Below, one piece after another: positions 10,727-62,110 of a stretch of 64,000 nucleotides of DNA; the stretch's first letter is position 1, and the number at the start of each line of letters is the position of its first letter. Below the pieces are notes generated by a model. It worked only from the letters and a program-made list of their open reading frames with translations, did not search any database and was not told the DNA's origin. A program made the translations under genes and the position numbers. Source of the stretch: Aradus depressus (Eukaryota; Arthropoda; Insecta; Hemiptera; Aradidae); the NCBI GenBank assembly GCA_963662175.1, contig OY759224.1, forward strand, positions 19,105,489 to 19,169,488, given 5' to 3'.

Positions 10727-10860
10727 TTTCAACGCAACAGCGTCATCATCAGTGGTACATCCCAAGCACACAACACAGCGGTTAAATGACGCCAGTTGAT
10801 GTGCTGTGTAGGTGGGATGTACCACTGATGATGATGCTGTTGCGTTGAAAGCCGGTTCCC
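10727..10860. ncRNA. Inverted pair of hammerhead-like motifs (family S)
   Basis: Two inverted 38-base arms flank a 50-base centre. The plus copy reads ACCACTGATGATGATGCTG then TTGCGTTGAAAGCCGGTTC; the minus copy reads CTGATGATGACGCTGTTGCG then TTGAAAAACC. Each has a CTGATGA core, an extra T, a short hairpin with TGTT loop, GAAA and a GCCGGTT or related block. CCA before the core could pair with TGG found after it in the related copy at 27798-27835. Other copies are at 36880 and 60351. Hammerhead activity is an inference. Confidence 0.5.
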
Positions 10861-10873
10861 TACACTTCATATA

Positions 10874-11375
10874 CAGTAGATTCGACTTGTAGAGGTTAAG
10901 ATTCATTCTAACTAATTTTGAGTTAGAGAGGTGAAATAAATAAAAATTCAAGTTACAGAGGTAACAAACATAGGTTTTATAAAAAAGTCAGTAATTTTTT
11001 TTTGCTTTAGATAATTGGTAATCCTATTTATTATATACTCCTGAATTGTTTTCTAAGAAACAATGGTGTACATTGTCGGCAAATTCTTAAAGTCGGTAAC
11101 TTATTTTTCTTCGAGCTATAGAGGTAATAAGTTTCAAATAATCGAGTTGTAAAGGTTATAATATAAAACATTGCTATGTTCGAGATATAGAGGTCAATTC
11201 ATTTTTTCGAGTTATAGAGGGAAAATATGTACCAAAATGGCTTGTAGGGACTCACTGATTATTTCGACTAATAGAGGGTTGAGATTTTGAGTAATGGAGG
11301 TTTTGGGGCTTGAAGGGAAAGGAACAAAACTTTTTTTCGAGTTTTGGAGGTTTTCGACTTAAAGAGGTTCCACTG
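10874..11375. mobile_element. Pogo/Tigger-like MITE, 502 bp
   Basis: The ends read CAGTAGATTCGACTTG and AAGAGGTTCCACTG and are flanked by TA on both sides, as expected for pogo-group Tc1/mariner elements. Terminal complementarity is short. The interior has several subterminal direct repeats of the form CGAGTTATAGAGGT. There is no transposase, so the copy is non-autonomous. Confidence 0.6.
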
Positions 11376-12159
11376 TAGCTGGGGAAGTGAATGTTTTTCT
11401 CGATCCATTCATTCTAGCAGGACATCATGTAGTTACGATGAAAACTCGAACTCGGATTTTCACACAATTATGAAAAATGTCTACTCTGAAAAAACATTTT
11501 TAGTCTAAAAATAAATGTTTTTATAAGTTGGGACTGTCAAGTTGGGCGGAACTAAAAGGTTTTTTGATAAAAGGATCTGTTTGTTATGAAATAAGGAAAA
11601 GTCAAAGAATTTTTTTGTGTTGTGCCATGGTAAGGCTACAAAAACCGGTTGAATGATCCGGATCCTATTGGCGTGGTGTGTGTGTGTGTGGGTGAGTGTG
11701 GGGACAGGGTGTGAAAGCAGCGGTGCGTGCTGAAGCGAGCTACCTTCTGGACTTGTCGAGGTGTCGAGAACGTCCTCTACCGACAAAGAGATGAAAGAGC
11801 CCAGGTCCGTCGATCCGTCATGGAGGCCCAGGATAGAGATGTCAACCCCCGCCGACAAAGCTAAGACTTCAGTGGGGGTCTTGACTTTTGGAAACACCGC
11901 CAATTATACCTACCCTCTGACCAGAAAGATAAATACATTATGGGCCGTCAGGGGGTGTGGAGTCAAACACAAACCTCCAGGGTTTTTCGGCCCTTTGATC
12001 CTTTCTGCGGCCCTTCTGTGGGCTCACTTTGTCCTATTATGCCCTTTAGGCTAACTTCCTCACAGATGTTTTCCTGGAAGACTCACTTTTCATTTCAACC
12101 CGCAAATTAAGGCATCACACCAAGGATCGGGGTATAGATGGAACATATCTACGGTAATT
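11376..12159. other. Spacer with a GC-rich patch and open frames of unknown meaning
   Basis: A GT microsatellite lies at about 11677-11700. Between 11505 and 12054 both strands have open frames: minus strand 132 codons with GVDISILGLHDGSTDLGSF and SLSVEDVLDTSTSPEGSS, plus strand 97 codons. I do not recognise either product. The patch 11700-11900 is distinctly GC-richer than its surroundings, like the retrotransposon remnants elsewhere, so it may be a piece of an element. Confidence 0.35.
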
Positions 12160-12275
12160 TAGGGTAGGCAAAATTTAGGACTCCCATTGTAGAGTCGGGC
12201 TCATGTCCACCAGAGTGACGACAGAGCGCGATATGAGCTTGTGGTTAAAGCCCAGGTATCAGTCATAATAACTAA
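12160..12275 (+). mobile_element. SINE-1 fragment, 3' end
   Basis: Matches the SINE-1 3' third: TAGGGTAGGCAAAATTTAGG, AGAGTCGGGCTCATGTCC, ACCAGAGTGACGA, then a degenerate end CAGTCATAATAACTAATTC. The right arm of the internal hairpin is lost. Confidence 0.7.
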
Positions 12276-12753
12276 TTCTACGATGTAAAGACCAAAGGGC
12301 ATAACTCTCAAATCATCATAGTACATAATAAAACGCGCTCGATTGTCGCAATGAACTTGAAATTTAATATGAAGATATGACCTAACAAAAAATCTCTTCA
12401 AATAAAAGTTATTGAAAAAACTAAAAGGGATTTTTTATATGACACAATATTTTTCACAGGACCCCCAGCTTGGGAGATACATGACGAAAACCGTCTTAAA
12501 ATGTTTTTAGTACAAGTTTTTTAGACATTTGGTTGATTCACGCGAAAACGGTTAGTCCTATCGAAAAATTGGTTCTCACAAAAACTTGTACTTATAAAAT
12601 TTCCAATCGCTAGAACGTCCTTAGATTCCTGACAGATCTAGTACAACTAATGTTATAGCGTCCTGAAGAATGTAATGTTGAAATGCAGCAACGGAGTTTC
12701 AGTTTGGTATAAGAACGTCCTTTATGTTCACTTGTGTGCCTGAGTGTCTAATA
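12276..12753. repeat. Family E repeat fragment
   Basis: Shares phrases with 43070-43260, 49990-50150 and 54560-54780: TCGAAAAATTGGTTCTCACA, ACGGTTAGTCCTATCG, GACATTTGGTTGATTC and ATATGACCTAA. The family is AT-rich and non-coding, and its edges cannot be set by eye. Confidence 0.45.
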
Positions 12754-13330
12754 TATCTAATTTATAAACTATCTTGATGAGATCATTTTTATGATGAATC
12801 CTATGGATGCCTGAGTTAATAGCTGTTTATGTATCTAATTTATAAACTATCTTGATGAGATCATTTTTATGATGAATCCTATGGATGCCTGAGTTAATAG
12901 CTGTTTATGTATCTAATTTATAAACTATCTTGATGAGATCATTTTTATGATGAATCCTATGGATGCCTGAGTTAATAGCTGTTTATGTATCTAATTTATA
13001 AACTATCTTGATGAGATCATTTTTATGATGAATCCTATGGATGCCTGAGTTAATAGCTGTTTATGTATCTAATTTATAAACTATCTTGATGAGATCATTT
13101 TTATGATGAATCCTATGGATGCCTGAGTTAATAGCTGTTTATGTATCTAATTTATAAACTATCTTGATGAGATCATTTTTATGATGAATCCTATGGATGC
13201 CTGAGTTAATAGCTGTTTATGTATCTAATTTATAAACTATCTTGATGAGATCATTTTTATGATGAATCCTATGGATGCCTGAGTTAATAGCTGTTTATGT
13301 ATCTAATTTATAAACTATCTTGATGAGATT
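12754..13330 (+). repeat. 78-bp tandem array, about 7.4 near-identical units
   Basis: The unit starts TATCTAATTTATAAACTATC and ends GAGTTAATAGCTGTTTATG. Adjacent units appear identical, so the array is young or kept uniform. Diverged single relatives lie at 22550-22660 (plus) and 32420-32525 (minus), both followed by GGTTTAACGGAAATAAA, which marks the ancestral dispersed repeat. The array ends at 13330 where the last unit drifts. Confidence 0.95.
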
Positions 13331-13837
13331 ATTTTGAATGACGTCATTAAAGTCTGTGCACAAGGCCGCAAGAGGTCCTTCGCGCAATACCGGGGACGTC
13401 TTACCCAATTTAATGTGCATATTTCTTTATCCTTAACGAAACTGACTTACGAGCCTATGCGCTGGGAAGGGGGGGGGGGGGGGGGGGACTTCTGCTTTCA
13501 CCCCACTGCTTGGAAGATACACAACCACTGGACGCTTACCACGCTGAGCTTACACATCATTACATTATCCATTGGCGTGGAGGGAAAAAACACGCTGAGG
13601 AGTGTGCGCCAGATGATGTGTAGTTCGCCTGAACGGGTGCATATAAATTCATTTAAGTACATTGCATTGTTGACGTCAACAATGTTAGAGTTGACAGGGT
13701 GACAGAGCGGTACATCGGTCTTGAGTGCGGTGCACTGTCCCATGAATGGGGGTGTGGGAGGGGGGTACACGAGTCATGATCGGGGTGGGAACATTGCAAC
13801 TCTACACTACATCTCTCTCAGGGTAAGTTTGTATGTA
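13331..13837. other. Spacer with a G homopolymer
   Basis: A run of about 20 G lies at 13468-13488. Open frames on both strands (13334-13702 plus; 13498-13770 minus) span the run and show no domain I recognise. Short inverted phrases TGTTGACGTCAACAATG occur at 13668-13684. Confidence 0.4.
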
Positions 13838-14373
13838 CAGTAGACTTTCCCTGATCGTGACGCCGGATAACAGAAAACGCCGGATAACGGAAATTATCAA
13901 TTAATGAGACAAAATATATCAATTAAATCATAAAAAAAAAGTGTTTTTAGTTGATCTAAGGAATAAAACACATATGTATCTTGTTGATAACATTTATTAA
14001 ATTGACAAATATGTACATACTGAACATTGATTTATTATATGTACGTATATAAGTGCATATGCACATAAAATAAAAATACCTAAAAGATTCGTGAGTTACG
14101 GAATTATTATGTGCTCGTAAATACATGTGGCTCATATAATTGATAATCTAATAATTGAATGTTAATTTTAGTTTTCGGTTACGTACCTCAGCAGTACAGC
14201 GACACACTTGCCACAGCACATCATCACAATCACTAGTGACAAATGTTGTCTTTGTGAATATGTAAATAAATAAAAAAAAAAAAAATTTTAGTTTAACAAA
14301 TTTGATATTATTTTGCAAGCGCCGGATAAGGGAGCGCGCCGGTTAACAGAACAGCGGATAAGGGAGCGTACTG
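13838..14373. mobile_element. Pogo-like MITE, 536 bp
   Basis: Ends CAGTAGACTTTCCCTGATCG and, on the other strand, CAGTACGCTCCCTTATCCG, flanked by TA on both sides. Each end carries two copies of CCGGATAA, directed inwards. The 400-bp centre is AT-rich with no transposase. Style of termini fits pogo/Tigger-type elements. Confidence 0.7.
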
Positions 14374-14471
14374 TAATATCAAATTTATCTATTGCTTACA
14401 GGATCGATAATACATTCCATAGCAAGGAGTTGGTCCTTAAGTAAGCTACATTACAAAAATAAATTAAAAAA

Positions 14472-14720
14472 TTGTCGGTGAATCAATAAATCGATTAATT
14501 TCGCACCTTCTCTGTTTCTACCCTTCTCTTTGGCTGGTTTCGCGGAAAATTAATAGATTCTGTTCTTATGCGGTTTCAAATTTAAATTTTAAATTTCGTG
14601 TCGATACATTCAGGCATCTACGGCCAGAGCGCAGATAATAATAATTTATCCCATTTTTATACGTCGAGAGCACAATCGTTTTAATTAAGTTTTTAATTTA
14701 TTTTAAAGTTGCTCGTCTCG
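14472..14720 (+). repeat. Family C copy
   Basis: Starts TTGTCGGTGAATCA, continues through TTTCGCGGAAAATTAATAG and TTTCGTGTCGATACATTCA. The right half is missing. Confidence 0.6.
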
Positions 14721-15014
14721 CCCGCCCCAAAGGCCGCCACTGCAAAGGCCTACTGATTACACGTTGCTGATGTGTTTTCAAAGGCTCCGCTACCATCAAA
14801 TCGAATCACAAATAAATATGAGGAGTGCAAATATACTCAATCCTACAGTGAATATGTCCAGTGTTCGGAAAAAGGAAAGTATCAGCGAGTAACAACGCGA
14901 ATACAGTGCAGGAAGACGTCATTTATTCGACTATATTTTCAATGCTTCAAAATATTATTTAAAAAAAAAATTATAATGAAAAACAAAAAAAAGCAAATAC
15001 CTGATATATAAAAT
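14721..15014. other. Spacer with an unrecognised 79-codon frame
   Basis: The plus frame 14772-15011 is rich in K, S and T and shows no domain. The sequence ends in A-runs. Nothing supports a gene. Confidence 0.35.
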
Positions 15015-15191
15015 CATTGCGCTCTTGTCGTATAGTGACCCTTATAATTAAAATTTAAAATCAGCTTTGCGCTCTCACCGGCCAACGGCTTTGTTTGAAG
15101 TACTGTGATAAATAATATTAATTAATTTGCGCTCTCGTCGTATAGTGACCCTCATAATAAAAATCAGCTTTGCGCTCTCGCCGGCCAACCC
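15015..15191. repeat. Direct duplication with Harbinger-like terminal sequence
   Basis: A 70-base unit occurs twice, at 15019-15087 and 15126-15191: TTGCGCTCT..GTCGTATAGTG then GCTTTGCGCTCTC.CCGGCC. The last 22 bases are the inverse of the sequence that abuts the MADF remnant at 4425. I read the units as terminal segments of a PIF/Harbinger-type non-autonomous element. Confidence 0.5.
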
Positions 15192-15194
15192 CAT

Positions 15195-15515
15195 ACATTC
15201 ATTACATCGACAGTTATTAGGGCTTTTGTGTTAAGCCCCCCTTATCTTTGGCTGAAAATCGATAGGTGTCGTCGTTATGTGGTTCTGGATACACATATAA
15301 AATGTATCGATACGTCGATAGTGATTATAGACACTGAACACACTGACGCATAGACAGACATTTTTTTTTTTCATTGTTGGAATCAGGGATTGTAAAACAT
15401 GAAATTCCGTTGAAAATTGTTTTTTTTTATCTCAAATGGTCGATTGATTTTGGAGGGGGAGCGGTAACTTAATTAATTAATTTCTTCTGGGGAAGTACAT
15501 ACTTTTGTGACCATT
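15195..15515 (+). repeat. Family C copy, right part, then inverted end
   Basis: Includes TTACATCGACAGTTATTAGG, GTCGTCGTTATGTGGTTCTG, ACAGACATTTTTTTTTTTC and GAAATTCCGTTGAAAATTG in family order, then at 15440-15510 an inverted piece ending TTCTGGGGAAGTACAT. So both directions of the family meet here. Confidence 0.65.
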
Positions 15516-15970
15516 GAATTCCTGCATTACCATATTAGAAATGTTATTTTACTTGTAAGTTTTGGTTGGACTGAAGGAGTGTGTGACAAAGACTGTCTAG
15601 GTTCAATTACTTGTGGTCTGACACCTGAGTGGTATGTTAAGCAGAGAGTCTAGGATGCAGACCACGCAGTCTCTCCTGGACTACCGTGCGTTTGTCATGC
15701 GTTCTCTGGAAGTCTCACCTGGAATTATAATAAGGTACTGCCGTTCGACTCTGTTCTCATCCAGCTGCCGCTTCAGTCTTATATGGTCACTACTAGAACA
15801 GACTCCAGTCAGGAACAGTTGCAGCTAACGCACTCTAAGCACTTACTGACTCTTCTCGATCCGTCTCTACTCACACTAAAAAACAGCTGATGGCCGTGTT
15901 TTGTTTTTTACTGGCATTTGTTTTAAAAGAAATGGTTTCTTATTATTTATTTACTAATTCAGTTTCTTTT
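15516..15970. other. Spacer, nothing recognised
   Basis: Moderate GC, short open frames on the plus strand (15634-15828, 15890-16081) without recognisable domains; the second runs into the family A repeat. Confidence 0.4.
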
Positions 15971-15980
15971 TATAGAAAAA

Positions 15981-16497: not shown

Positions 16498-16507
16498 TAT
16501 AGAAAAA

Positions 16508-17439: not shown

Positions 17440-17523
17440 AACATTATTATATATTAAGGAAACAAAATAGATGAAATATAATTTATAATATTCTTCACTT
17501 TATAATTTTACTTATACACTCAA

Positions 17524-20574: not shown

Positions 20575-21024
20575 GTAGATACTGCACTTCTCCTTATGAG
20601 GGCAGTATACTATAAGCGTTATTATCGGCGAATTTTATGTAGAACTCTTAAATATGTTATATTATAAGTAGATACTGCACTTCTCCTTATGAAAGCAGTA
20701 TACTATAAGCGTTATTATCGGTGAATTTTATGTAGAACTCTTAAATATGTTATATTATAAGTAGATACTGCACTTCTCCTTATGAAAGCAGTATACTATA
20801 AGCGTTAGTATCGGCGAATTTTATGTAGAACTCTTAAATATGTTATATTATAAGTAGATACTGCACTTCTCCTTATGAAAGCAGTATACTATAAGCGTTA
20901 TTATCGGCGAATTTTATGTAGAACTCTTAAATATGTTATATTATAAGTAGATACTGCACTTCTCCTTATGAAAGCAGTATACTATAAGCGTTAGTATCGG
21001 CGAATTTTATGTAGAACTCTTAAA
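20575..21024 (+). repeat. 93-bp tandem array, about 4.8 units
   Basis: The unit begins GTAGATACTGCACTTCTCCT and includes AGCAGTATACTATAAGCG. Units are almost identical. At one site they read TTATTATCGG in units 1, 2 and 4 and TTAGTATCGG in units 3 and 5; the first unit also has GAGGG for GAAAG. This pattern suggests that the last two units were copied as a pair. Confidence 0.95.
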
Positions 21025-22015: not shown

Positions 22016-23640
22016 TTATCAAATAGAGCCATGGCACATTAAAAAAAAAAAAATAAAATAAATAAAAAAATTTAAACTACAACTAAAAATGTTTATGTTA
22101 GAGGAAACCCTTTAACGGAAACAAAATTTTATTCTCACTGTTCAAAAATAATAATACAATCACAATAAAAAATTGTGTTGTTTTATTTATTAATTTATAA
22201 TTTTTATTTATTCATTTTTTATTGATTAATATATGTTTATAAATATTTTATTTTATTTTTTTATATATTGTTATAGTTACATTGTTTTCTTTTTCTTTTC
22301 TATATCATTGCGACCTGATGATGGGACGTAAGAACATCCCAAAACATCGTTGGGATAAAGACACTTCCGAAGAGTTTATTGAAAAATAGTTACCTTAATT
22401 TTTATTACATTGAAAAATGTGTCAACTTATTATAAATGTATATATGTATTAATTTTTTTTTATACTCATATATTTTTAAACATTTATTTATTCAGTTTTT
22501 ATCAATTTCATTTTACTTTTTAATAGTTTTGTTATTACTAATCATAGATGTGTTAGACTCAAGTAGTTATAAATCTAATTTATAAGCTATCTGAATGTAT
22601 AAATTCTTTTGACGTATCCTATTAACCATGTATTGGTTTAACGGAAATAAATTTATTATGATTATTTCTTTCTTTATTTTTTAATTATACCTATTTATTA
22701 TTTTTTTAAAACAATCTTCAGTCAAGGTTTCATATTATAATATTTTCTTTTAAACTAGAATCACCTTTAAGTCTTGCATCCGTGGCGCTCCAAGCGGAAT
22801 TCATTTAATGCTGCTAGCTCTCCTCTTATTATTTGCTCCTCCAAAATATGTTATCGCTGTAGTCAGGTGTGTTCTAGTCCTAGTTACTATTAGTGCTAGT
22901 CCTAGTTACTATTAGTTCTAGTCTTAGTACTATTAGTCCTAGTCCTAGTTACTATTAGTTCTAGTCCTAAATTAAATATTGTGATATAGGTAGTTTATGA
23001 AAATATATTGATAATATATGAAATAAGATTTTTTTTAGATTTAAGATGATCTATAGTTGATAGAACATCGGGAACTTCTACCAGAATATAAAGAAAATGT
23101 CAAAGTTGAAAAATGTTGTCTGAAGACAGGACATTATCCGAAGTGGAGTGAATGGTATTATTGGGTGATTGGCCAGGTTGAATGAGGTATGACCACTCAT
23201 CTATCCCTGACACAAGAACAGTCATTCAACTCCAAGTTTGTGAATGATTAAGGATCTCTGTGTTACTTGCTTTTGTGTTGTATCATCTGGAGTTGAAATA
23301 TTGTACAGTACGTCATATCACACAAAACCTACTACAATCGAGTTACTCGAAAAACTATTTTTGTCAGGGCAGAAATTTAGAGATCATTTCATAATTAGAT
23401 ATAGTTGTGTAGTTGTAGTAAGCAGTTTCTGTATTTATATATAATATATATTTATCACAGCTACATTTATCTCTTTTATTTTCTGATCTGCTACAATTTA
23501 GCAACTACAGATGTTTGGGGAAATACTAGCATCGTCAGTATCTGGAGGAGAATCCGGAGGCTTCCGAGCCAGTGGCCCCATCCAGGCACCGCCGGACAAT
23601 TTGACATAGATACAGCATGTAGAGGTTGATAGGTCATATA
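22016..23640. other. AT-rich spacer with small repeats
   Basis: No gene is seen. At 22313-22350 a single hammerhead-like motif (family R) reads CCTGATGATGGGACGTAAG, AACATCCC and AAAAC; the core and hairpin fit but the G before the A-run is changed. 22550-22660 is a diverged single relative of the 78-bp unit. 22875-22973 is a 22-bp tandem repeat (AGTTACTATTAGTTCTAGTC), about 4.5 units. 23100-23500 shows nothing. Confidence 0.5.
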
Positions 23641-27712: not shown

Positions 27713-27943
27713 TATGTGTTAGTAAGTCGTTGTGGGACGAGATTTCTCATTGAAATAAAAGACGTTGTCTTCCCACTGTTTTATTTTTGACCAGAACCGG
27801 TTTTCAACGCAATAGCGTCATCCTCAGTTGTACAGCGTAGTGGTTAAAGGAGAACTGGCTAACATTGCAGGCCTTTCTTAAATCAACCAGGCTTACAGAT
27901 CTCTCTCTCCGCTTTCTCAAATCATTTCATTCTAGCGTTACTG
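27713..27943 (-). ncRNA. Hammerhead-like motif, family S (27798-27835)
   Basis: Minus strand: CTGAGGATGACGCTATTGCG, TTGAAA, ACCGGTTC, TGG. The core has G at the variable position of CTGANGA, the hairpin GACGC/GCGTT is intact, GAAA is followed by the palindrome AACCGGTT and then C. The downstream flank (AAAAATAAAACAGTGGGAAG) is shared with the copy at 60351. The rest of this interval is not recognised. Confidence 0.5.
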
Positions 27944-28819: not shown

Positions 28820-28850
28820 GGCCCTGATGATGATATGAAATATATTTGAA
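28820..28850 (+). ncRNA. Hammerhead-like motif, family Q, decayed
   Basis: GCCCTGATGATGATATGAAA then TATATTTGAA. Core CTGATGA plus T and hairpin GATATgaaATATat are kept; GAAA is changed to TGAA. Better copies are 47507-47545 and 54376-54413. Confidence 0.4.
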
Positions 28851-28905
28851 TAGTGTTTTCATCATTGACTGACCCTCAATACCTCAATAGAATTCAGAAT
28901 TTAAA

Positions 28906-30175: not shown

Positions 30176-30310
30176 CTGCCTGATGATGAGGGCAACCTCG
30201 AAAGCCGGCTAGCTAATACAAATTAAAAATCTGTGAGAGGACAGACTACATCTCATTTGTGAAACTGTGAAACTAGGGAGTGTCACCACTCATGGTGACT
30301 GAGAAGTGAT
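30176..30310 (+). mobile_element. PLE terminal sequence, family P, with hammerhead-like motif
   Basis: The motif 30176-30216 reads TGCCTGATGATGAGGGCAAC, CTCGAAA, GCCGGCTAGC. It has core CTGATGA plus T, hairpin GAGGgcaaCCTC, GAAA, palindrome AGCCGGCT, then A; TGC before and GC after can pair. The downstream flank (AAATCTGTGAGAGG) matches the ends of the PLE at 52550-54060. Only one end is present. Confidence 0.6.
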
Positions 30311-36783: not shown

Positions 36784-37642
36784 ATATATATATTTGTTCA
36801 CTTCAATTTAACGCTAGGTACTTGAAAACCATCAATAGAGTATCTCATAAAAAAAATATATAGTTTGTAATGAATGGTTCTGGCTTTCAACGCAACTGCG
36901 TCATCATCAGTCGCACATCCCAACCGTATAGTATGGTGTCTGAATCACTTTCCTTCATTGTCCATCATTAAGTAACTTTACATAAGTGGGCTTCCTGACT
37001 GAGAAGTGCAGTGTCTCAAGTGCAGTTCAAAAATCAAAGAAGAACAAACAACAAACATAAGAGTAGAAAGTGTAAGAACCATTAACAGTAGTGGATTGGC
37101 AGTTCCTATAGTCGTTGGACTGTTGTACAGTGTAGTGTAGGTACAGTGTGTTCAAGATCACAATCGTTTCTTCTAAGTAAGGGTAAGTGAGGCATTACCA
37201 GTCTACAATACATCCTCGCAATGGGTGGGCCCCCCTGCCCAATGGGGCCCTTTTGTGGGGCCCATGTCAAAACAACCATAAATCCATCTATAGAGGGTGT
37301 GCAATAAAATAATAAAAGTTGGTATTGTCAAAATTGGGAAACTGTTCAAAAGTTAACAATAAGACATGTTCTCTGAGTACGGTAATAGTGGGTAACAATG
37401 AGTAGCACAGTTCCTTTCCAAAAACCTACAAATGTGTTTTTTTTTTTGTTTTTTTTTGAAAAAATGGCTTTTCAAAAACACGGAAAAAAGGTCGGTAGGT
37501 CATTTCAGGAAATGCTATATAAACAAAATTTTTTATTATAGCGGTGTCTCCCTATTTGCGTATACCCAGAATGCGTACAGCTACGAAATATACCCATTAT
37601 GAACTTGAATGAAATAAAACTCGTTTATTTGTGGTGAATATA
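36784..37642. other. Spacer with hammerhead-like motif at 36880-36916
   Basis: On the minus strand 36916-36880 reads GACTGATGATGACGCAGTTG, CGTTGAAAGCCAGAACC: core plus T, hairpin GACGC/GCGTT, GAAA (family S). The rest, including a GC-rich patch 37195-37270 and T-runs at 37437-37460, is not recognised. Confidence 0.45.
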
Positions 37643-38016: not shown

Positions 38017-38025
38017 TACATGGGA

Positions 38026-38318
38026 GTACTTTCGATATTTCTACCATCCGCAGCCAAAAGCATAAGAGATAAGACTGACGAGTTTTATTTTATTCAAGTT
38101 CATTTGAATTATTTCACAATATCTCTGCAATAATGTCAGTTTTCATTGATAATGCGTGTCGGGCAAATAATGCAGTTAAGTTTAAGAGATTAAGTGTTAA
38201 GTTCGCAAAAGCTAACAGAAACATTTGTTTCATCAAACAATTCCTAAAAGAATATGTTATATAGTCTTAACTCTTATGCTTTTGGCTGAGGATGGTAGAA
38301 ATACCGAAAGTATTCCTA
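38026..38318. ncRNA. Inverted pair of hammerhead-like motifs (family U)
   Basis: The plus copy 38282-38318 reads TTGGCTGAGGATGGTAGAAA, TACCGAAAGTATTCC: core CTGAGGA, T, hairpin GGTAgaaaTACC, GAAA. The minus copy 38058-38026 reads GGCTGCGGATGGTAGAAATA, TCGAAAGTACTCCCATG, with the palindrome AGTACT followed by C, and CCA that can pair with TGG before the core. The arms extend through AAGCATAAGAG. The centre (about 220 bases) is AT-rich. Confidence 0.5.
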
Positions 38319-47099: not shown

Positions 47100-47590
47100 G
47101 AATGTGACATTTATGACGGGGTTTTCCTTCAGCACCCCTGCATTATTGTACCATTTCATTGCAATGTAAGACTCCATCCAGTGTACATGCCTTCTCCCCA
47201 ACCCTGCTTATTCATAATAAGTCAGTTTAATTTTTACTCTCATTATGTTCTACCTATTTGTCTATTTCCGTGATTATTAATGTTTTAGTAATTTATTCAT
47301 AGTTAATTTTTAATTGTATTAGTGTACGTTCATGTTTATGGTTAACAATGTATCTATATTTAATTTTAATGTTTAGTAACGTATTCATACTAAGTCATGT
47401 TCAATTTTTAACTTGTTACAATGTCTATTTTAACGTTCAGTAATGTTTATCAACACACTAATGTTGTTTAATTGTGATTCTAATCTTGATTCCCCCCCAT
47501 GTTTGTAGGCCCAGATGATGATATAAAATATATCGAAATTTTGAATAGTATTGTCTGTTCTCTTCCATCTTTGACTGACCCTCAATATTC
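47100..47590 (+). mobile_element. Family Q PLE 3' region with hammerhead-like motif
   Basis: Matches the non-coding part downstream of the PLE C-terminus at 28029. The motif 47507-47545 reads GGCCCAGATGATGATATAAA, ATATATCGAAATTTTG: hairpin GATATAaaaTATATC and GAAA intact, core CTGATGA changed to CAGATGA. The flank GACTGACCCTCAATATTCCT follows. Confidence 0.6.
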
Positions 47591-47992: not shown

Positions 47993-48450
47993 GGAAGTTA
48001 AGTAATCGAACAGAAATTCGATGTTGAGTTATCAATGGAATTTCATAGGTTGTCAAATAACATATAGTCTGACCTCTCACAGATTTTTATTTGTATTAGC
48101 TAGCTGGCTTTCGAGGTTGCCCTCATCATCAGGCAGTCTGATAAAATAAAAAAAAATTTGAAATTTTAATGAAATAAAATATTTAATACAATTTAAAATT
48201 TTTATTATAAACATTTTAAATGTTATTTATTAAAATATTTTATTTCATTCAAATTTCAATTTTATTTTATTTTATCAGACTGTCGATGATGAGGGCAACC
48301 TCGAAAGACGGCTAGCTAATACAAATAAAAATCTGTTTATGAGACTATATCTTATTTGACAACCTGTGAAATAATCACTTCTCACTACATCAGCCATAAA
48401 CTAATTAATTCGAGTTGGGGAAGTACACTATCAGTGATTTACTGACGACT
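47993..48450 (-). repeat. Family C copy interrupted by a PLE foldback
   Basis: 47993-48060 (GGGGAAGTTAAGTAATCGAA, TCAATGGAATTTCATAGG) and 48395-48450 (TAATTAATTCGAGTTGGGGA, AGTACACTATCAGTGATT) are two parts of one family C copy, with the foldback between them. Confidence 0.65.
48050..48380. mobile_element. PLE-derived foldback with paired hammerhead-like motifs (family P)
   Basis: Inverted arms of about 150 bases share AGGTTGTCAAATAA, CTGACC-like sequence, AAATCTG and the motif. The left motif (minus, 48096-48137) reads CTGATGATGAGGGCAACCTC, GAAAGCCAGCTAGC; the right (plus, 48276-48316) reads TCGATGATGAGGGCAACCTC, GAAAGACGGCTAGC. The AT-rich centre has no coding sequence. It looks like two PLE ends joined without the gene. 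Confidence 0.7.
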
Positions 48451-52380: not shown

Positions 52381-52601
52381 ATAAAGATACTATGAAAGAA
52401 ACTACAATTTTGGATGCTCTTAGAGTTTTAGTTTGAACGGAGCCTCCTCCCAAAATTTATTAAGGAAACCAATTCGGATGAGGTTAAGTAGAGTAGGGTA
52501 AGAAGAAAATATATGAAGATGGCTGATGTAGTGAGAAGTGATTATTTCGCAGGATGTCAAAAATAAGTTAGTCTGACCTCTCACAGATTTTTTATTTAAG
52601 T

Positions 52602-52645
52602 AAGCTAGCCGGCTTTCGAGGTTTCCCTCATCATCAGGCAGTCTA
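52602..52645 (-). ncRNA. Hammerhead-like motif, family P, downstream of PLE gene
   Basis: GACTGCCTGATGATGAGGG, AAACCTCGAAAGCCGGCT, AGC. Core CTGATGA plus T, hairpin GAGGgaaaCCTC, GAAA, palindrome AGCCGGCT, A at the cleavage position, GC..GC pairing outside. It lies about 135 bases after the PLE stop on the same strand. The loop GAAA differs from GCAA in the copies at 30176 and 48096 while the stem is kept. Confidence 0.55.
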
Positions 52646-52780
52646 CAAAAGAACATCCTTAATATGTAATATGAATAGCAAATAAATAATAAAAACACAA
52701 TTTTTGATAAAACATACCTGATAAAAATTTGAATAAACTAAATAATAAAAATATAAATAAATAAAAATCTACAACAAACA

Positions 52781-53962
52781 TTAACAATTTAAAATATCAT
52801 GGATGGGGACAGACGAGTTATTCCTGTCCACCATCTGAGTCACAACTGGGAGAACGGTGTACGTGAGACTGGACAAACCTCCCATCCCCTCTTTAGAGTT
52901 GAGGAGGGGGGACTCTCTCTTCCTCCTTTCCAATTTTATTTCGATACTTTCCAATGTATCCATTTTTCTACCTTTTTGGACATGATGCAGTAATGAGACT
53001 GAACCGGCCTCATGTCCTGTGTTCTGGAGGTGTTGGAAAAATTCAGAGTCGCCCCTCCTCAAATGCTCCCTCACTCTAGTCCTCAGCTTCCGGCCCGTCT
53101 GCCCAAGATAAAAACATTCACAGTCTTTACAAGTAATCCTGTACACGCCGGATTTGTCAGGGAGGTCCACACGATCTTTGGTTTTTGAGAGCATCCCCTT
53201 AAGAGAAGTCCTACTTTTGAAACCCACATTCACGTCATCTCCCTTTATTATCCGAGATAATTTCTCAGAGAGTCTGGGGAGGTACGGCAGAACACACCAG
53301 CCACCCCCGCCATCCCTCTCCTTAGTTTGGTTACACCCTCCGTACACTGACGTTACCATTTTCTCCTCCGTCTTTCTTTTCAATATACGTTCTACCAGGT
53401 CGGTTGTGTAACCATTAACGACGGCGAGGTGTCTGATGTGCTCCAACTCTCTTTCGTAGGAGTCACGGGAAACAGGGAGTTTGAGTAGTCTGTCTATGAA
53501 AGAGTGAAATGCTGCATGTTTATGTTTTGTGTGATGAGATGAACTGTTTGGTATTAATGTTTCTGTACTGGTGGGTTTCCTGTAAATGTCGAAGGTGTAG
53601 CTCTTGTCCTGTTTTGTAATTTGTAGATCTAAATAATTGATACTATTGTTTTGTTCTAGGTCTATGGTGAATTTTATAGTGTCTGTAAGTGAGTTTATGT
53701 AGTCGTGTAAGCTGTTTAGTTCAGTATTGGTTCCCGTGAACTCCACCAAAATATCATCCACGTACCTCGTCCAGAGCGCTATTTTGTGGAAATGTGGGTT
53801 TCTGGGGTTCATTATAAACTCCCTCTCCAACCAATCCATGTAGACCTCCGCTGCTAGAGGACTAAAGGGGGAGCCCATGGGTGTTCCCATTTTTTGGTGA
53901 TAAAATTTATCTTTAAATTTGAAATAATTTTGTTCTAGACAAAGATTTATTAGGGTTGTCAA
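52781..53962 (-). CDS. Penelope-type RT / GIY-YIG endonuclease, 5'-truncated
   Basis: The 393-residue open frame starts inside the RT domain: GTPMGSPFSPLAAEVYMDW (residues 26-44), the catalytic RYVDDIL (66-72; YVDD 67-70), and INYLDLQITK in the thumb. A linker with SRDSYERELEHIRHLAVVNG follows. The C-terminal GIY-YIG nuclease has GVY (272-274), YLG (285-287), the conserved arginine in RTRVREH (around 297), E in LESIE (338-341) and N355 in LLNSKEG. So all nuclease residues are present. RT blocks before the GSP motif are absent: the frame runs into the inverted terminal repeat. The ATG at 53962 is just the first in frame. No frameshift or stop damages the remaining 393 codons, which suggests a young insertion. 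The product as it stands cannot be an active RT. Confidence 0.93.
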   Translation of the reverse strand: MTTLINLCLEQNYFKFKDKFYHQKMGTPMGSPFSPLAAEVYMDWLEREFIMNPRNPHFHKIALWTRYVDDILVEFTGTNTELNSLHDYINSLTDTIKFTIDLEQNNSINYLDLQITKQDKSYTFDIYRKPTSTETLIPNSSSHHTKHKHAAFHSFIDRLLKLPVSRDSYERELEHIRHLAVVNGYTTDLVERILKRKTEEKMVTSVYGGCNQTKERDGGGGWCVLPYLPRLSEKLSRIIKGDDVNVGFKSRTSLKGMLSKTKDRVDLPDKSGVYRITCKDCECFYLGQTGRKLRTRVREHLRRGDSEFFQHLQNTGHEAGSVSLLHHVQKGRKMDTLESIEIKLERRKRESPLLNSKEGMGGLSSLTYTVLPVVTQMVDRNNSSVPIHDILNC

Positions 53963-54060
53963 CTCACCTCGAGGGAAACCTCGAAAGCCGGCTAGCTTAC
54001 TTAAATAAAAAATCTGTGAGAGGTCAGACTAACTTATTTTTGACATCCTGCGAAAGAAAA

Positions 54061-54375
54061 TATATATTAAAATACATGCATTGAATATACATACATTTGT
54101 TTTTTATATTTATAACGGTAGTAAAGAAATGTGATGTATAAAAATAATACACACATTAAAAAGATTAAATTATAAACATTAAAAAATTAATTATATTTAT
54201 TTTTATATAAAAAGCTTTCTTTTTAAACAAATGAGTAAAAAAACAAAACACTACCATCAGCTGTTTTGTGAGTGGAGAGTAGAGTCGAGGCCTGGGTTGA
54301 AAGCGACGGTCTCAGTGAAGATGTGGAGTTGTGTTAATTGTGATTCTAATCTTGATTCCCCCCCCCATGTTTGTA
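54061..54375. other. AT-rich spacer and start of family Q block
   Basis: 54061-54250 is AT-rich without features. From 54335 (TTGTGATTCTAATCTTGATT) the sequence matches 47465-47510. Confidence 0.5.
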
Positions 54376-54413
54376 GGCCCTGATGATGATATAAAATATA
54401 TCGAAACGTTGGC
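54376..54413 (+). ncRNA. Hammerhead-like motif, family Q, best copy
   Basis: GGCCCTGATGATGATATAAA, ATATATCGAAACGTT, GGC. Core CTGATGA plus T, hairpin GATATAaaaTATATC, GAAA, palindrome ACGT, then T; GCC before the core and GGC after the site pair perfectly. Downstream TTTGAATAGTGTTGCC and GACTGACCCTCAATA are shared with 28850 and 47545. This family is linked to PLE coding at 28029. Confidence 0.55.
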
Positions 54414-56400: not shown

Positions 56401-56429
56401 ATTTAAATATATATATATATTCGATCATT

Positions 56430-57286: not shown

Positions 57287-57900
57287 TCGTCGGTGAATTA
57301 CCAACAATGGAATCCCCCAGAACGAATTATTACGAATAATTGATTAATTGAATTTTCGCTCCTCCTCCAAAAACATTCGACCGTTTGCGCTAATATTCAA
57401 CAGTTGACTTACATAGGGGCTCTTTAATCCTCACACTAAATTTTGTGTCGATAAATTCATTACATCGGCAGTTTAATAACTAGTTGAATTGAGCCCCCTT
57501 CTCTGAGAACCCCCTTCCCTTGGGTCGATATCGCTGAAAATTGACAGGTTATGTCCTCATTGGCTTTTGAATTTAAATATGAAATTTCATGTCGATTCAT
57601 TCATTACATCGTTAGTTATTGGGATTTTTCATTTGAAACTCTCCCCTAATCCCCCCCTTCCCTTTGGTCGATTTAGCTGAAAAACAATAGTTGTCATCGT
57701 TAGAGGATTCTGGGTTCACATATAAAATTTCGTGTCGATACATTCATTATATCGGTAGTTAACGTGTTCACCGACACAAAGACAGACAGATTTTTTTTTT
57801 TCATATTTGGAATCTAAAGGCTGGAAAACAACAAAATCCGTTGAAAACTCCGCATCGAATTTTTGACCGATTACACAACTGCCCCTACTTCGTAAATAAA
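57287..57900 (+). repeat. Family C, best copy (about 614 bp)
   Basis: Order of landmarks: CGTCGGTGAATTACC, CCCCCAGAACGAATTATTAC, TCCTCCAAAAACATTCGACC, TTTTGTGTCGATAAATTCAT, GATATCGCTGAAAATTGACA, TTTCATGTCGATTCATTCAT, TTCGTGTCGATACATTCATT, a T-run with ACAGACAGA, CCGTTGAAAACTCCGCATCG, and TTACACAACTGCCCCTACTT. The middle has repeated CGATACATTCATTACATCG-type units, about 190 bases apart, so the family grew by internal duplication. It has inverted ends (see 9166-9451) but no protein. More than 20 copies or pieces occur, in both orientations; smaller ones not listed separately are near 38940, 58640, 60890. Confidence 0.75.
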
Positions 57901-57905
57901 AGTGA

Positions 57906-58121
57906 AGCATATATAAAAATTAATTAATTATGTACATGGCTTTCTTAGGCTTCTCTGGGGTTACTTTTCCAACATTTATTTCAGAGATGCCTTCAACTTC
58001 TTTTGACAATATTTCGAGATCCATCCAACCCCTTCTTCGGATCAAAATATATCTGACCTCTAGGAGGTGCGTTATGGGCACATCGATCACGGTGCCTCTA
58101 CCGTTAACTGCTTGAAGGTCT
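57906..58121 (-). other. Unrecognised open frame cut by a PLE end
   Basis: On the minus strand 67 or more codons are open from 58121: DLQAVNGRGTVIDVPITHLL, EVRYILIRRRGWMDLEILSK, EVEGISEINVGKVTPEKPKK and AMYIIN before a stop. There is no ATG at the start because the PLE sequence begins at 58122. Composition looks coding. It may be a truncated exon or a retroelement piece; no family recognised. Confidence 0.4.
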
Positions 58122-58251
58122 GCTAGCCGGCTTTCGAGGCTGACATCATCAGGCAGTCTACAAAAAAAACATCATTTAGCAACAAAGAAACAGGCATAAA
58201 GTTCTGTTCGTTAATATCCATAAAATATTGTGGTAATAAACTATTAAATAA
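58122..58251 (-). mobile_element. PLE terminal sequence, family P variant, with motif
   Basis: Minus-strand motif 58162-58122: GACTGCCTGATGATGTCAGC, CTCGAAAGCCGGCTAGCA. Core plus T is intact, GAAA and the palindrome AGCCGGCT are intact, TGC and GCA pair fully, but the hairpin has decayed. Upstream sequence (CAACAAAGAAACAGGC, TAAAATATTGTGGTAATAAA) is shared with 59758-59840. Confidence 0.55.
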
Positions 58252-58598
58252 AGGTTAGGTTAGGTTTTATGAGTCATGCCCCGGCTTTAACTACGAGGTC
58301 ATATCGCCTACTACCAGAGCGCTCTTTCGTCACTCTGGTGGACATGAGCCCGACTCTACTATGGGAGTCCTAAATTTGGCCTACCCTAAATGTGTATTCA
58401 CCTAGGGTAGGGGTCTTTAACTAGTACCTGACATCGTACAGGCTCGGGACCATTGCTTAACGTCCCATCCGAAGGATGGCGTGCTTAAGTTTATTTTACC
58501 TCCCAGATAAAATAAACTAAGGGCCTAGGTCGGGTTACGAACCCACGTTCTTGAACTCAGAAGACAAGCACGCATACCACTGAGCTACCGGCGCCCTC
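58252..58598 (-). mobile_element. SINE-1, full-length copy
   Basis: Minus strand: GAGGGCGCCGGTAGCTCAGT, GTGGGTTCGTAACCCGACC, CCATCCTTCGGATGGGACG, the hairpin CCAGAGTGACGAAAGAGCGC with CTCTGG, AAAACCTAACCTAACCT. Inserted at the end of the PLE block (ATTAAATA). Confidence 0.92.
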
Positions 58599-59326
58599 TA
58601 ACGCTCTTGTACCAACACAACTTTTTCTAGGTTTTTTATGGAGTGCAAAAACTTAATTAATTCGTTCCAGGGAAGTAAATTGCCAGTAATTCATCATTTT
58701 TGAAATGAGAATTTCGGAAAATCTGAAATTTCGTTGAAAATTCAAAACAATTTCAGACCGATTAGTTATATAACTTCCCCTATACCTCGTACACCTGAGG
58801 AAGTAAAAAAAAAAACAATAAAATTGGAGAGTTTTAATGAATGTAATTTGTATGTTAAAATCCCAGTCTTTATAATTTATATTCTAAAATTTCAACTGTT
58901 AAGAAAATACTCATTTTATTTTGCCAAATATTGACTATTATTAATAAAATATAACCCTCTCCACATCTCTCCAAGTATATTTGACCGCATAAAGAATGAG
59001 AAGATCGTGTTGACTTAGAAGTTAAGTCAACTGACTTAGAATGGAGTGGAATATTTAAATGAGAGGTTCACAAAACGTCTCATAAAGGTTAACTTATTGA
59101 CAGACAGACCGTCCACTCAACTAATTCAAACCAAAAACTGACATCATCATTTGTATGTTTCAAAATCTTTCATCTTTACCGACAGTTTGGCATGAATAAT
59201 AAATTTATAATTTAAATATTGCTAATTTGCATTAGTTTATCCATTTATTGGATGTTTTTCCAGGCGTTAAGTCACTAACCTTTATCAATTTTGTCCCGTT
59301 TTACATTAATCAAGTGTCGCTAGTTA
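58599..59326. other. Spacer with a family C right end
   Basis: 58640-58810 contains TTAATTAATTCGTTCCAGGG, AAGTAAATTGCCAGTAATTC, then CCGTTGAAA-like sequence and ACTTCCCCTATACCTCGTAC. 58811-59326 is AT-rich and unassigned. Confidence 0.45.
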
Positions 59327-59480
59327 TTGTAACTCATGCCCGGACTTTACTTATGAGGTCATATCGTCTACTACCAGAGCGCTCTTTCATCGCTCTGATA
59401 AAAATGAGTACTCTACAGTGGGAGTCCTAAATTTGAACGACTGACATCGCACAGACATGAATCATCGCTTGAAAATCAAT
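59327..59480 (-). mobile_element. SINE-1 3' fragment
   Basis: Minus strand: TCAAGCGATGATTCATGTCT, TAGGACTCCCACTGTAGAGT, the hairpin AGAGCGATGAAAGAGCGCTC, AAAGTCCGGGCATGAGTTAC. Confidence 0.75.
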
Positions 59481-59660
59481 CGATATCAAACTGAAGTACA
59501 TCGACAGTTATTTCCGTTTTCGAACCCTTCCTCTGACCCCCATTTCCCTCTGGGCGATTTGGCTGAAAATCACTAAGGGTCGTCTTTACTGGTTTCTGAA
59601 TGCACATAAAAATTTATTTGTGTCGATACATTCAATCTAATGGGAGTTATCATTGCACTG
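59481..59660 (+). repeat. Family C right part
   Basis: CAATCGATATCAAACTGAAG, ACATCGACAGTTATTTCCG, CCCATTTCCCTCTGGGCGAT, TTTGTGTCGATACATTCAAT. Confidence 0.6.
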
Positions 59661-59684
59661 GTAGTGAGTATTTATAAGTAAAAT

Positions 59685-59880
59685 AAAATATAGTCTGACT
59701 CACAGGTTTTATTAATTTTTGCTAGCCGGCTTTCGAGGTTGTCCTCATCATCATGCTACAAAAAAAACTACCATTTAGCAACAAAGAAACAGACTAAATC
59801 CATAAAATATTGTGGTAATAAAATATTAAATAAACATATCTGATAAATTTCATGTTTGTTTTTAAAGATTGTTATCAACT
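59685..59880 (-). mobile_element. PLE terminal sequence, family P variant
   Basis: Minus-strand motif 59757-59721: GTAGCATGATGATGAGGACA, ACCTCGAAAGCCGGCTAGCA. Hairpin GAGGacaaCCTC, GAAA and palindrome intact, but the C of CTGATGA is changed. AT-rich PLE sequence with TAAAATATTGTGGTAATAAA follows. Confidence 0.5.
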
Positions 59881-59902
59881 TAATTGTTGTTACTTTTTAT
59901 TA

Positions 59903-60090
59903 GGTAGCTCAGTGGTATGCGTGCTTGCCTTCTATGCTCAAGATCGTGAGCTGGAAACTCAACCGAGGTCCTTAGTTTATTTTATCAACTAATAAACTTA
60001 AGCACGCCGTCCTTCGGGTGGGACGTTAAGCGATGGTCCCGAGCCTGTACGTTGTCAGGTACTCCTTAAAGACCCCTGCCCTAGGTGAAT
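59903..60090 (+). mobile_element. SINE-1, 3'-truncated copy
   Basis: GTAGCTCAGTGGTATGCGTG, ACTTAAGCACGCCGTCCTTC, GGGACGTTAAGCGATGGTCC, AAAGACCCCTGCCCTAGGTG; stops at GAATAAATATA before the hairpin. Confidence 0.8.
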
Positions 60091-60350
60091 AAATATACTG
60101 GGGGAAATGTTGTTCTACTATAACCTAATAGTTTGATTTTAGGATCGCATTATTTATCTGACTTTATGAAAAGTATTATAAGTTATAACACCTTCTAGTA
60201 CATATACGCCTGCTTACAGTTACCAAAATGTGTAAAGTTACTAACCTGCTTAAAGTTACTAATCTGCTTAAAGTTACTAACCTGTGTGAAGTAACTCCGG
60301 GCGAAGCTGGGTAACCTCCTTGTATTTTATATTTATTCAATCATAGATGT
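60091..60350 (+). repeat. 18-bp tandem repeat and flank
   Basis: 60220-60292 holds about four units of CTTAAAGTTACTAACCTG. It is followed by TCCGGGCGAAGCTGGGTAAC, resembling the GC-rich start of family A-type repeats read in the other orientation. Confidence 0.6.
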
Positions 60351-60381
60351 GCCACTGATGACGCTGTTGCGTTGAAAATAG
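60351..60381 (+). ncRNA. Hammerhead-like motif, family S
   Basis: GCCACTGATGACGCTGTTGC, GTTGAAAATAG. The core is followed directly by hairpin CGCtgttGCG, lacking the TGA present in other S copies, then TT and GAAA. The palindromic block is changed. Shares the flank AAAAATAAAACAGTGGGAAG with 27771-27790 (inverted). Confidence 0.4.
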
Positions 60382-60989
60382 TTTCTGCTCAAAAATAAAA
60401 CAGTGGGAAGACATATTTTATTTCTATAAGGAATTATTCTTATTAAACTAATATTTCTAAATGTTCGATTTACCAGGTTCAATACGTTTTGTCAATTTAG
60501 AATTGATAATGAAACAATAAAGAGATGAAATAGTGGAAATAAAGGGGATCTACCTTGGGCAAACAATGTTGTGTTTGCCCTCCTATCAGACATGAAAAGA
60601 CCTTTTGCCGGAGCCTATATCAATGTCAATTAGTCTACAGATATCCCAAGGGGAGGGGGAGATGGCATTAAAGGATTGGATTGGATAGGTAAACACAAGA
60701 AGAAATATTAATGGAGACGGACCAATCAGAAAGTCTTGTTGAGGCCTTGTTTGAGAAGCACTCTCTTTGATAGTTCATTGACAAGGGATCTTTGTTTTTT
60801 GGTGTTTGCTTTGTTTGATATCTGGCAAAGATGGATATTAGATAATCAAATATTCCTATTTGTTGTTCTAGATGTACAGTCAACTCTAAGTCGGGTTCTC
60901 TGAATACGTTTTGACCATTTTCGCGAAGATGACTGTCTGCGAACGTTTGCGAAACCAAAATCAAAACTTTCTACTGCCAACAAACTGAC
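60382..60989. other. Spacer with family E phrase
   Basis: 60890-60945 (GGGTTCTCTGAATACGTTTT, GACCATTTTCGCGAAGATGA) matches 42940-42975. A 98-codon minus frame (60668-60964) is not recognised. Confidence 0.4.
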
Positions 60990-61350
60990 AATAACAACCT
61001 GTCTCTACTCAGCCAAATCCTCCGTATAATTGTAAATGCTCCCTTATATGTCACCAATAAATTACTCTATGAAGACCTAAACATCCCAACAGTCCAGGAA
61101 CTAATCTAATCCCGATTTTTAATTTTCCACAATGCACTTTCATCCTATCCTAACCCATTTGAGTCCTATCCACTCAATTATATCCTAACAATCCTTCACG
61201 CTGTCTAAATAGGAGATGGCCTCGAGAACTTCATAGTCAAATTTAAATATTTTATTGTTTTCTTTGGAATGTCAGCACTTACTTATTCATGTAAATAGTT
61301 TTCAAATTTGCTTATTATGTATATTGTATATATAGCAAATAAATGAAAAA
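60990..61350 (+). mobile_element. Jockey-like LINE 3' end
   Basis: The frame reads NNNLSLLSQILRIIVNAPLY, VTNKLLYEDLNIPTVQELI, a stop, SRFLIFHNALSSYPNPFE. LR.I..AP.YV.N..L..DL.IPTV.E.I is the standard C-terminus of Jockey-clade ORF2. A 140-base 3' UTR ends with ATAAATGAAAAAAAA. It could belong to the same family as the RT pieces at 39231 and 49847. Confidence 0.8.
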
Positions 61351-61379
61351 AAATTATATCCAAAGCAATCGGTAAATTG

Positions 61380-62110
61380 GTTTCACTGGCAATCAGGGGT
61401 CGAAGAACATCAAAATTCTCCCAGGACGATTAACTGTTCGCTCCCCCCATAACCAGTTGAGCGTATGCGCTAACTTATGTCGTCCTTATGGGGTTTTCAA
61501 TGAACATATATCATTTTGTGTCGATAAATTCGTTACAACGGCAATTATTAAAGTTTTTGAGTCAAGCCACTCGCTAATCCCTCCTCCCCTTTGGCCGATT
61601 TGACTAACAAATAATAATTTCTAACATTTTTGCAGAGAGATTGTGAAACACTTAATAAATTATAAAGAAAACACGAATGTTTTTTAAATATTGTCTATTT
61701 CACAAGATAAATAAAATAGTATTTTCGGTATTGCTACCATCTTCAGCCACGACAAATACCAGTATTTGTTAAGTCGTGACTGAAGATGGTAGCAATACCG
61801 AAAGTACTCCCATATACTCGTATTTTATATACATATCTTGTGAAATAGACAATATTTAAAAAACATTCGTGTTTTCTTTATAATTTAACAAATAATAGAG
61901 TAGAGGGTTCTGGATTCACATAAAAAATTTCGTGTCGATACATTCATTCTATCGGCAGTTATCGTGTTATATGTATTATCGTGTACACACATGGACAGAC
62001 TTTTTTTTCATATTTGGTGTCAAGGTCGGAAAACATGAAATTCCATTGAAATCTCCACGATTACATAACTTCCCCTATACTTCGTATTGCTGAGAAAGTA
62101 AAAACCGAAG
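61380..62110 (+). repeat. Family C copy interrupted by a foldback
   Basis: The left part 61380-61616 runs from AATCGGTAAATTGGTTTCAC to CCTTTGGCCGATTTGACTAA; the right part 61886-62110 resumes TAGAGGGTTCTGGATTCACA and continues through TTCGTGTCGATACATTCATT and GATTACATAACTTCCCCTAT to GAGAAAGTAAA. Confidence 0.8.
61605..61897. mobile_element. Foldback with paired hammerhead-like motifs and 12-bp target duplication
   Basis: TAACAAATAATA stands at 61605-61616 and 61886-61897. The insert 61617-61885 is a near-palindrome with arms of about 115 bases (ATTATAAAGAAAACACGAAT to TTCAGCCACGA and inverse). Each arm carries the family U motif: plus 61776-61815 reads GACTGAAGATGGTAGCAATA, CCGAAAGTACTCCCATA; minus 61751-61721 reads GGCTGAAGATGGTAGCAATA, CCGAAAATAC. 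Core CTGAAGA, T, hairpin GGTAgcaaTACC, GAAA, palindrome AGTACT, C. A clean duplication shows it moved as a unit. Confidence 0.8.

Follow-up and report, generated by a model that had tools for sequence, protein, structure and literature searches.

Minimal hammerhead-like motifs with an extra U at position 10 accompany Penelope-like elements in the genome of Aradus depressus

The stretch of DNA analysed here (the window) comprises 64,000 nucleotides of the Aradus depressus genome (GCA_963662175.1, contig OY759224.1, positions 19,105,489 to 19,169,488) and contains copies of four repeat families, which we refer to as P, Q, S and U. In all four families, CTGANGA and a single T are followed by a hairpin, GAAA and a self-complementary block, and a U-H position and a short outer helix complete an architecture that an earlier sequence-only reading had likened to that of hammerhead ribozymes. 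By direct reading, all 18 places listed for the families carry the described motif or a recognisable remnant of it (Table 1). A descriptor demanding CTGANGA, zero to two extra bases, a stem II of 3 bp or more and GAA matched the window 13 times, compared with 0–3 times (mean 0.7) in 40 dinucleotide shuffles. Eleven of these matches belong to the listed families, and all eleven have exactly one extra base, T. By this strict descriptor, core and stem II are kept in 11 of the 18 listed copies, while seven miss at least one element, which corrects the sequence-only reading.

We built a covariance model from 12 aligned copies, three per family, of which 11 came from outside the window and one, a P copy (52603..52641), from inside. 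All listed copies but one (17 of 18) were recovered by the model at E < 0.002, a result that together with the direct reading bears out the shared architecture of the four families. The 18th, the Q copy at 28820, scored E = 1.5 because its GAAA and cleavage side have decayed. In 98 retrieved, partly overlapping loci, the model found 191 matches at E up to 0.05. The CUGANGA core is present in all 12 aligned copies, its variable base being T, A or G as first read, and the T at position 10, GAAA and the A15.1–U16.1 pair are invariant in all 12 rows. H17 is A, U, C and C in P, Q, S and U, respectively. Three of the outer pairings proposed at the outset stand (GCC/GGC, CCA/TGG and TGG/CCA), but TGC/GCA of family P does not: its 3′ strand is GCT, and its stem I consists of two G–C pairs and a U–U mismatch. 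A self-contained stem III hairpin is absent from every family, and stem III can form only between copies. The palindromes are AGCCGGCU in P, ACGU in Q, AACCGGUU in S and AGUACU in U, with dimer energies of −14.9, −1.7, −10.1 and −4.8 kcal/mol, respectively, and no fold alone.

Covariation was tested on a hand-written hammerhead structure of the 12 copies from four families, in which stem III was the pairing inside the palindromic block. The copies align without ambiguity, 96.7% of the cells are paired and nine of the 12 pairs are altered on both sides. None of 500 shuffles reached the covariation score of 0.672 (0.257 in shuffles), and pairing fell to about 31% when the partners were slid by one column. 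Stem II alone is 100% paired, with a score of 0.641 (0.277 in shuffles) that was again reached by 0 of 500. Overall, three of five covariation measures beat every shuffle. The compensatory changes in stems I–III between families, around an unchanged core, support the hammerhead reading; those in stem II, seen here in 12 copies, agree with what the sequence-only reading had expected of copies across the genome.

The motifs are linked to Penelope-like elements. In the P insertion of the window, reverse transcriptase (RT) and endonuclease are encoded in one open reading frame (ORF), with matches to Pfam RVT_1 (E = 4.2e-7) and GIY-YIG (E = 5.7e-7). The best named relative of this ORF is a Phthorimaea RT (38% identity), and homology to another Penelope protein spans 52859-53965. 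Using the P protein and two relatives as queries, we found Penelope coding sequence in nine of the 98 retrieved loci. It lies 5′ of the motif and in the same orientation in L016 (family Q; L017 overlaps this locus), in L049 (S) and in L070, L076 and L078 (U), as it does for P in the window. The suggested connection to Penelope-like elements is thereby confirmed for all four families. Among the 101 of 7,329 candidates scored, 99% identical copies of the P ORF occur elsewhere in the genome, and three of them have 859-aa open frames. The same candidates include at least four head-to-tail pairs exactly 2,819 bp apart, on four contigs.

The insertions also have the anatomy of Penelope elements, namely an inverted terminal copy, an optional tail, target-site duplications (checked in one P and one U insertion) and tandems. 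The inverted arms of the P insertion measure 88 nt and are 99% identical, whereas those of the minimal U insertion measure 54 nt and are 100% complementary. RNA of 61656-61887 folds as a single hairpin (z = −23), in which the motif is paired with its own complement. Downstream of the motif, sequence conservation extends over one of two main distances in each of the four families, roughly 80–95 and 110–135 nt (eight loci for P), as would be expected from the optional 30-40-bp tail reported for such elements (PMC3846280, PMC11167929). In seven inverted Q pairs, judged by eye, one arm has the short version and the other the long one.

Table 1. Hammerhead-like motifs, Penelope-like insertions and their flanking repeats in the window.
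Feature	Position	Strand	Remarks
P-family Penelope insertion	52515..54054	-	tail, P motif, ORF and inverted partial terminal copy
11-bp direct repeats AGAAAATATAT	52504-52514, 54055-54065		flank P insertion; the word's sole two places in the window, + strand
5′-truncated Penelope-like ORF, RT part and GIY-YIG endonuclease	52784..54028	-	415 aa open frame; TAA 52781-52783
P hammerhead motif	52603..52641	-	E=3.4e-9, copy itself used in model; C3 144 nt past ORF stop
Inverted P motif reduced to stems II to III	53971..53993	+	5′ junction of P insertion; E=0.09
P hammerhead motif, intact core	30176..30214	+	descriptor and covariance model
P hammerhead motif, left arm of inverted pair	48098..48136	-	descriptor and covariance model
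P motif, right arm of pair with 48098..48136; 5′ core end altered	48280..48317	+	direct reading and covariance model
P motif with stem II deletion	58121..58156	-	covariance model
P motif, C3 changed	59720..59758	-	covariance model
Q motif, decayed	28824..28858	+	covariance model E=1.5
Q motif, altered core and stem III	47508..47545	+	covariance model E=0.0008
Q hammerhead motif, intact core	54376..54413	+	descriptor and covariance model
S motif with intact core and altered stem III; left arm of inverted pair	10718..10756	-	descriptor and covariance model
S motif, right arm of pair with 10718..10756	10825..10858	+	descriptor and covariance model
S hammerhead motif	27791..27831	-	descriptor and covariance model
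S motif, altered stem III	36871..36914	-	descriptor and covariance model
S motif, 3 nt lost in TGATGATGA run	60351..60388	+	covariance model E=0.0019
U motif, core A6 altered, left arm	38021..38057	-	covariance model E=4e-6
U hammerhead motif, right arm	38282..38318	+	descriptor and covariance model
U motif, intact core, left arm	61714..61750	-	descriptor and covariance model
U hammerhead motif, right arm	61776..61812	+	descriptor and covariance model
Minimal U insertion	61617..61885	.	two inverted U termini, one end longer; little else
12-bp direct repeats TAACAAATAATA	61605-61616, 61886-61897		flank U insertion; the word's sole two places in the window, + strand
Weak fifth-family copy	22311..22351	+	T10, altered G12, stem II GGGACGT/ACATCCC; E=0.13

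We then determined how widespread the motifs are in the 698 Mb assembly (74 contigs). Patterns that tolerated two mismatches (P) or three (Q, S and U) identified 7,190 close copies of P, 2,925 of Q, 6,260 of S and 15,857 of U, a total of 32,232, and reversed-pattern controls gave no copies for any of the four patterns.

The extra T had been the main doubt about the hammerhead assignment. The inserted base sits between A9 and G10.1, which is hammerhead position 10. In the textbook spacing, which is usual but not required, no nucleotide stands between A9 and stem II; the motifs described here have one extra base. The (+) hammerhead of chrysanthemum chlorotic mottle viroid (CChMVd) is reported to have A10, and in this viroid hammerhead U at position 10 reportedly raised the rate 3–4 fold, A had a slight cost and C or G were very harmful (PMC3705267). 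Insertions of 1–2 nt beside CUGAnGA are also recorded from alignments (PMC10085705). On the viroid precedent, as far as that report goes, the extra T is an activity-compatible insertion at a known position and not a break of the core, which answers the doubt.

To quantify the bases at position 10, we queried the genome for the pattern CTGANGA-x-G..CGAAA, with CTGANGA-G-H representing motifs without insertion and reversed patterns as control. T was found 40,032 times (control 383), A 6,928 times (98) and C 733 times (92), while the pattern without insertion had 621 matches (218). The pattern with G at this position had 649 matches (49), but it is indistinguishable from a stem starting with GG, and a length of 21 nt, to be expected of P copies minus three bases, is seen in about 40 of the 100 matches listed for it. 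Because the patterns demand CGAAA and G10.1, they miss S copies with a closing G–U pair and canonical motifs without G10.1. The order of bases in the genome agrees with the kinetics reported for the viroid, U > A >> C, G (PMC3705267). Among 100 listed non-T matches, 67 were distinct, and 31 of these 67 had a stem II of at least four pairs (shuffled mean 3.7, maximum 9). They include at least three further A10 families, recognised by their stem II alone: GGAAA/TTTCC, GGCAC/GTGCC and GGGACGT/ACGTCCC. The weak fifth-family copy in the window has T10, whereas copies of this family from the search aimed at non-T bases have A or C.

By analogy with the viroid, the extra U likely stays because it is helpful or at least harmless. 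We put forward more tentatively, as a doubtful possibility, that position 10 is integral to Penelope hammerheads, with U (A being second best and C rare) speeding a core that lacks its own stem III and the element layout acting as a cutting switch. The base counts in the genome would then mirror the kinetics measured in vitro, inverted solo copies would keep the ribozyme hidden in a hairpin, and head-to-tail tandems would unite two motifs and excise unit-length RNA. We found no statement on position 10 of Penelope hammerheads in the literature searched, a comparison that left the primary consensus papers outside.

We consider it highly probable that the four families are minimal type I hammerhead motifs located 3′ of Penelope-like RT/endonuclease ORFs, and we predict that they cut as pairs, because they have no stem III hairpin of their own and each family has its own self-complementary block. 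Two motifs would pair via the palindrome, either in a tandem transcript or between two transcripts, and we infer that this pairing forms stem III. Each core would then be supplied by its partner with the U-H site to be cut and with the stem I 3′ strand, and cleavage after H17 is predicted to yield unit-length element RNA with 5′-OH ends. The element's own protein may assist, by analogy with the lizard element PAc (Poseidon, Anolis carolinensis); such help is likely, and transposition may or may not depend on cutting. In solo insertions, the motif stands beside its own inverted copy, and the resulting RNA hairpin would likely hide the ribozyme. Cutting would occur in tandem copies.

The arrangement of the motifs in the genome bears on this layout. 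Among the first 100 listed places of the T10 pattern, 32 pairs of neighbours lie within 3 kb, of which 27 are inverted (−/+), three direct and two convergent; eight of the 27 lie at the beginning of contig C1, where a single segment is repeated, and are not independent. Adjacent same-family pairs in the retrieved loci, with overlaps counted twice, were −/+ in four of four cases for P, 21 of 23 for Q, 16 of 21 for S and 14 of 18 for U. In 53 inverted pairs, the extent of upstream sequence common to both arms was scattered between 0 and 162 nt with no pile-up at the predicted cut site, and these pairs therefore give no sign of cut templates.

Several further observations concern the surroundings of the motifs. 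Upstream of the motif (L039-L068 and L009-L038), a splice-acceptor-like ...AG is frequent in P, Q, S and U. In S copies, the same ATGAACCA-like stretch is preceded by either ..CTATCATAG or ..GTGGGTGGG, a pattern that unspliced and spliced templates would produce. At C1:112535-748165, triplets of T10 motifs (−, −, +, the last two starts 68 bp apart) recur mostly every 65–77 kb, suggestive of a large tandemly duplicated region at the beginning of this contig. At C1:20881304-20881673, three direct U motifs with a 123-bp period are followed by an inverted one, possibly as a product of small circular RNA or of rolling circles. In L095, a unit of about 700 bp with U motifs and antisense endonuclease fragments is repeated in the manner of a satellite and derives from a Penelope element.

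A number of results weigh against the view that these motifs are hammerheads cutting in pairs. The hammerhead fold appeared in none of the computed minimum-energy monomer or dimer folds. Pairs changed on both sides were not above shuffles (51 of 500 reach the observed value; 108 of 500 for stem II alone), nor were further pair types (493 of 500; 499 of 500 for stem II alone). These two measures fail because just four lineages are compared, and variation within families is mostly decay. Some stems are short: P forms two pairs in stem I, and Q has just ACGU for stem III, at −1.7 kcal/mol. A few large families account for most of the position-10 counts, which do not represent independent events. 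Endonuclease fragments are antisense to the motif in two of the nine coding loci, L082 and L095, and a third, L033, is ambiguous. The inverted arrangement of 27 of the 32 neighbour pairs would hide the motif. Finally, the PAc hammerhead without its protein did not cut, PAc ribozyme mutants left insertion unchanged, and PAc RNA-seq ends were absent at the cut site (PMC11167929). We lowered our confidence accordingly, because PAc cuts only with its protein.

Searches of Rfam point in the same direction. In this comparison, which the sequence-only reading had proposed, no Rfam hammerhead model gave a match to any copy of the window up to E = 10, nor was there a hammerhead match in 171 bases with a Q copy or in 141 bases with a U pair. 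The genome-wide search with Rfam hammerhead models scored just 73 of 144,117 candidates, too few to weigh for or against. Separately, 28 matches of the window to other Rfam models (E up to 10), comprising microRNA, small nucleolar RNA, long non-coding RNA and transfer RNA models, were all under gathering scores and were rejected; many of them were triggered by palindromes and simple sequence.

Of the other explanations, the one that survives best, although we think it unlikely, is that the hammerheads act singly, with the element protein binding the adjacent tail and holding the weak junction, and not as RNA dimers. This would fit PAc, whose hammerhead cuts with the PAc protein even when the endonuclease site is mutated but not without the protein (PMC11167929), and the motif here adjoins the tail. 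Single action does not explain, however, why each family has a stem III sequence of its own that is nevertheless perfectly palindromic, and dimer cutting has been reported for Penelope hammerheads (Lunse 2017, cited in PMC7761336).

Somewhat less probable still is that the motifs are ribozyme relics, whose structure was selected in an ancestor and whose copies no longer cut in the cell but persist by element copying. The seven broken copies among the 18 in the window and the very short stems I and III might be consistent with this, as is the finding that cutting is dispensable for PAc insertion in vitro (PMC11167929). Conversely, the 99% identical P copies with 859-aa open frames indicate recent activity, and the differing stem II sequences remain paired around an unchanged core.

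We regard it as very improbable that a coding function or a start codon explains the retention of the extra T. CTGANG-ATG does contain an AUG across A9, T10 and G10.1 in all four families, as in the lizard element, whose ORF begins at stem II. By direct reading, however, the AUG in P, Q and S reaches a stop by the ninth codon, and matches with A10 or C10, which have no AUG there, occur in the same genome. A coding role of the extra T was rejected for P, Q and S on these two grounds.

We give even less credence to a role of the conserved block in DNA or in reverse transcription, as an integration signal, priming palindrome or protein site that is merely hammerhead-like. The block does lie near insertion ends, beside palindromes and inverted copies, features that Penelope papers are reported to tie to self-priming (PMC3846280), but nested stems covary between families while exactly the hammerhead core letters are fixed, and a DNA signal needs no paired changes. 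Equally remote is an identity as retrozymes, in which hammerheads within short, tandemly repeated non-coding units give rise to small circular RNAs. A few direct tandems resemble them, with spacings of 123 bp for three U motifs (C1:20881304-20881580), 201 bp for two S motifs in L068 and 706 bp for two U motifs in L095, but neighbours are mostly inverted, some elements encode Penelope proteins, and insertion-free hammerheads are rare in the counts given above.

Elsewhere in the window, two nearly perfect tandem arrays are found at 12754-13335 (78 bp × 7.5, 99%) and 20575-21024 (93 bp × 4.8, 98%). Two long ORFs occupy 5776-8044, the second of which (6710-8044) is a reverse transcriptase with named relatives that include the true bugs Nesidiocoris and Apolygus.

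The class to which we assign these motifs is known: minimal type I Penelope hammerheads, with a short or missing helix III, have been reported in terminal repeats and in thousands of copies in animal genomes (PMC7761336, PMC7229834). A palindromic stem III with dimer action has been reported for them (Lunse 2017 via PMC7761336, PMC6466107), and tertiary contacts between stem I and loop II are reportedly absent (PMC7761336). The motifs reported by Lunse, Weinberg and Breaker in 2017 are, like those described here, of type I, located in Penelope-like terminal repeats and proposed to act as dimers; here, a position-10 nucleotide is present in most matches and its base is counted genome-wide. To this class, the A. 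depressus genome contributes four well-supported families and, judged by stem II, at least three others, in one genome where the position-10 insertion is mostly U, and an element layout that could decide which copies cut. A natural set with varied stems and position-10 letters makes the role of Penelope hammerheads testable.

Other known systems share single features with the motifs described here. The CChMVd (+) hammerhead, as reported, likewise has one extra nucleotide between A9 and G10.1 (PMC3705267), but it is a viroid ribozyme, whereas the motifs here belong to a retrotransposon. Penelope of Adineta vaga is described as having an inverted terminal repeat at its 5′ end, a 31-bp tail on one side, target-site duplications of 8–10 bp and head-to-head palindromes (PMC3846280); the text of that paper mentions hammerheads 0 times. 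In PAc, the hammerhead lies at the pLTR–ORF junction of a tandem Penelope element, and a 30-40-bp tail separates two RT start sites (PMC11167929). The AUG in PAc opens the main ORF, whereas the corresponding AUG in P, Q and S soon meets a stop, and the PAc hammerhead requires the PAc protein for cutting (PMC11167929). Metazoan retrozymes likewise carry type I hammerheads in repeats of animal genomes, but are reported to be direct tandem non-coding repeats with canonical motifs (PMC7229834). The direct tandem non-coding repeats of 150–400 bp with canonical hammerheads that characterise retrozymes were not what we found; in A. depressus, the repeats are mostly inverted, linked to Penelope-like elements and equipped with the insertion.

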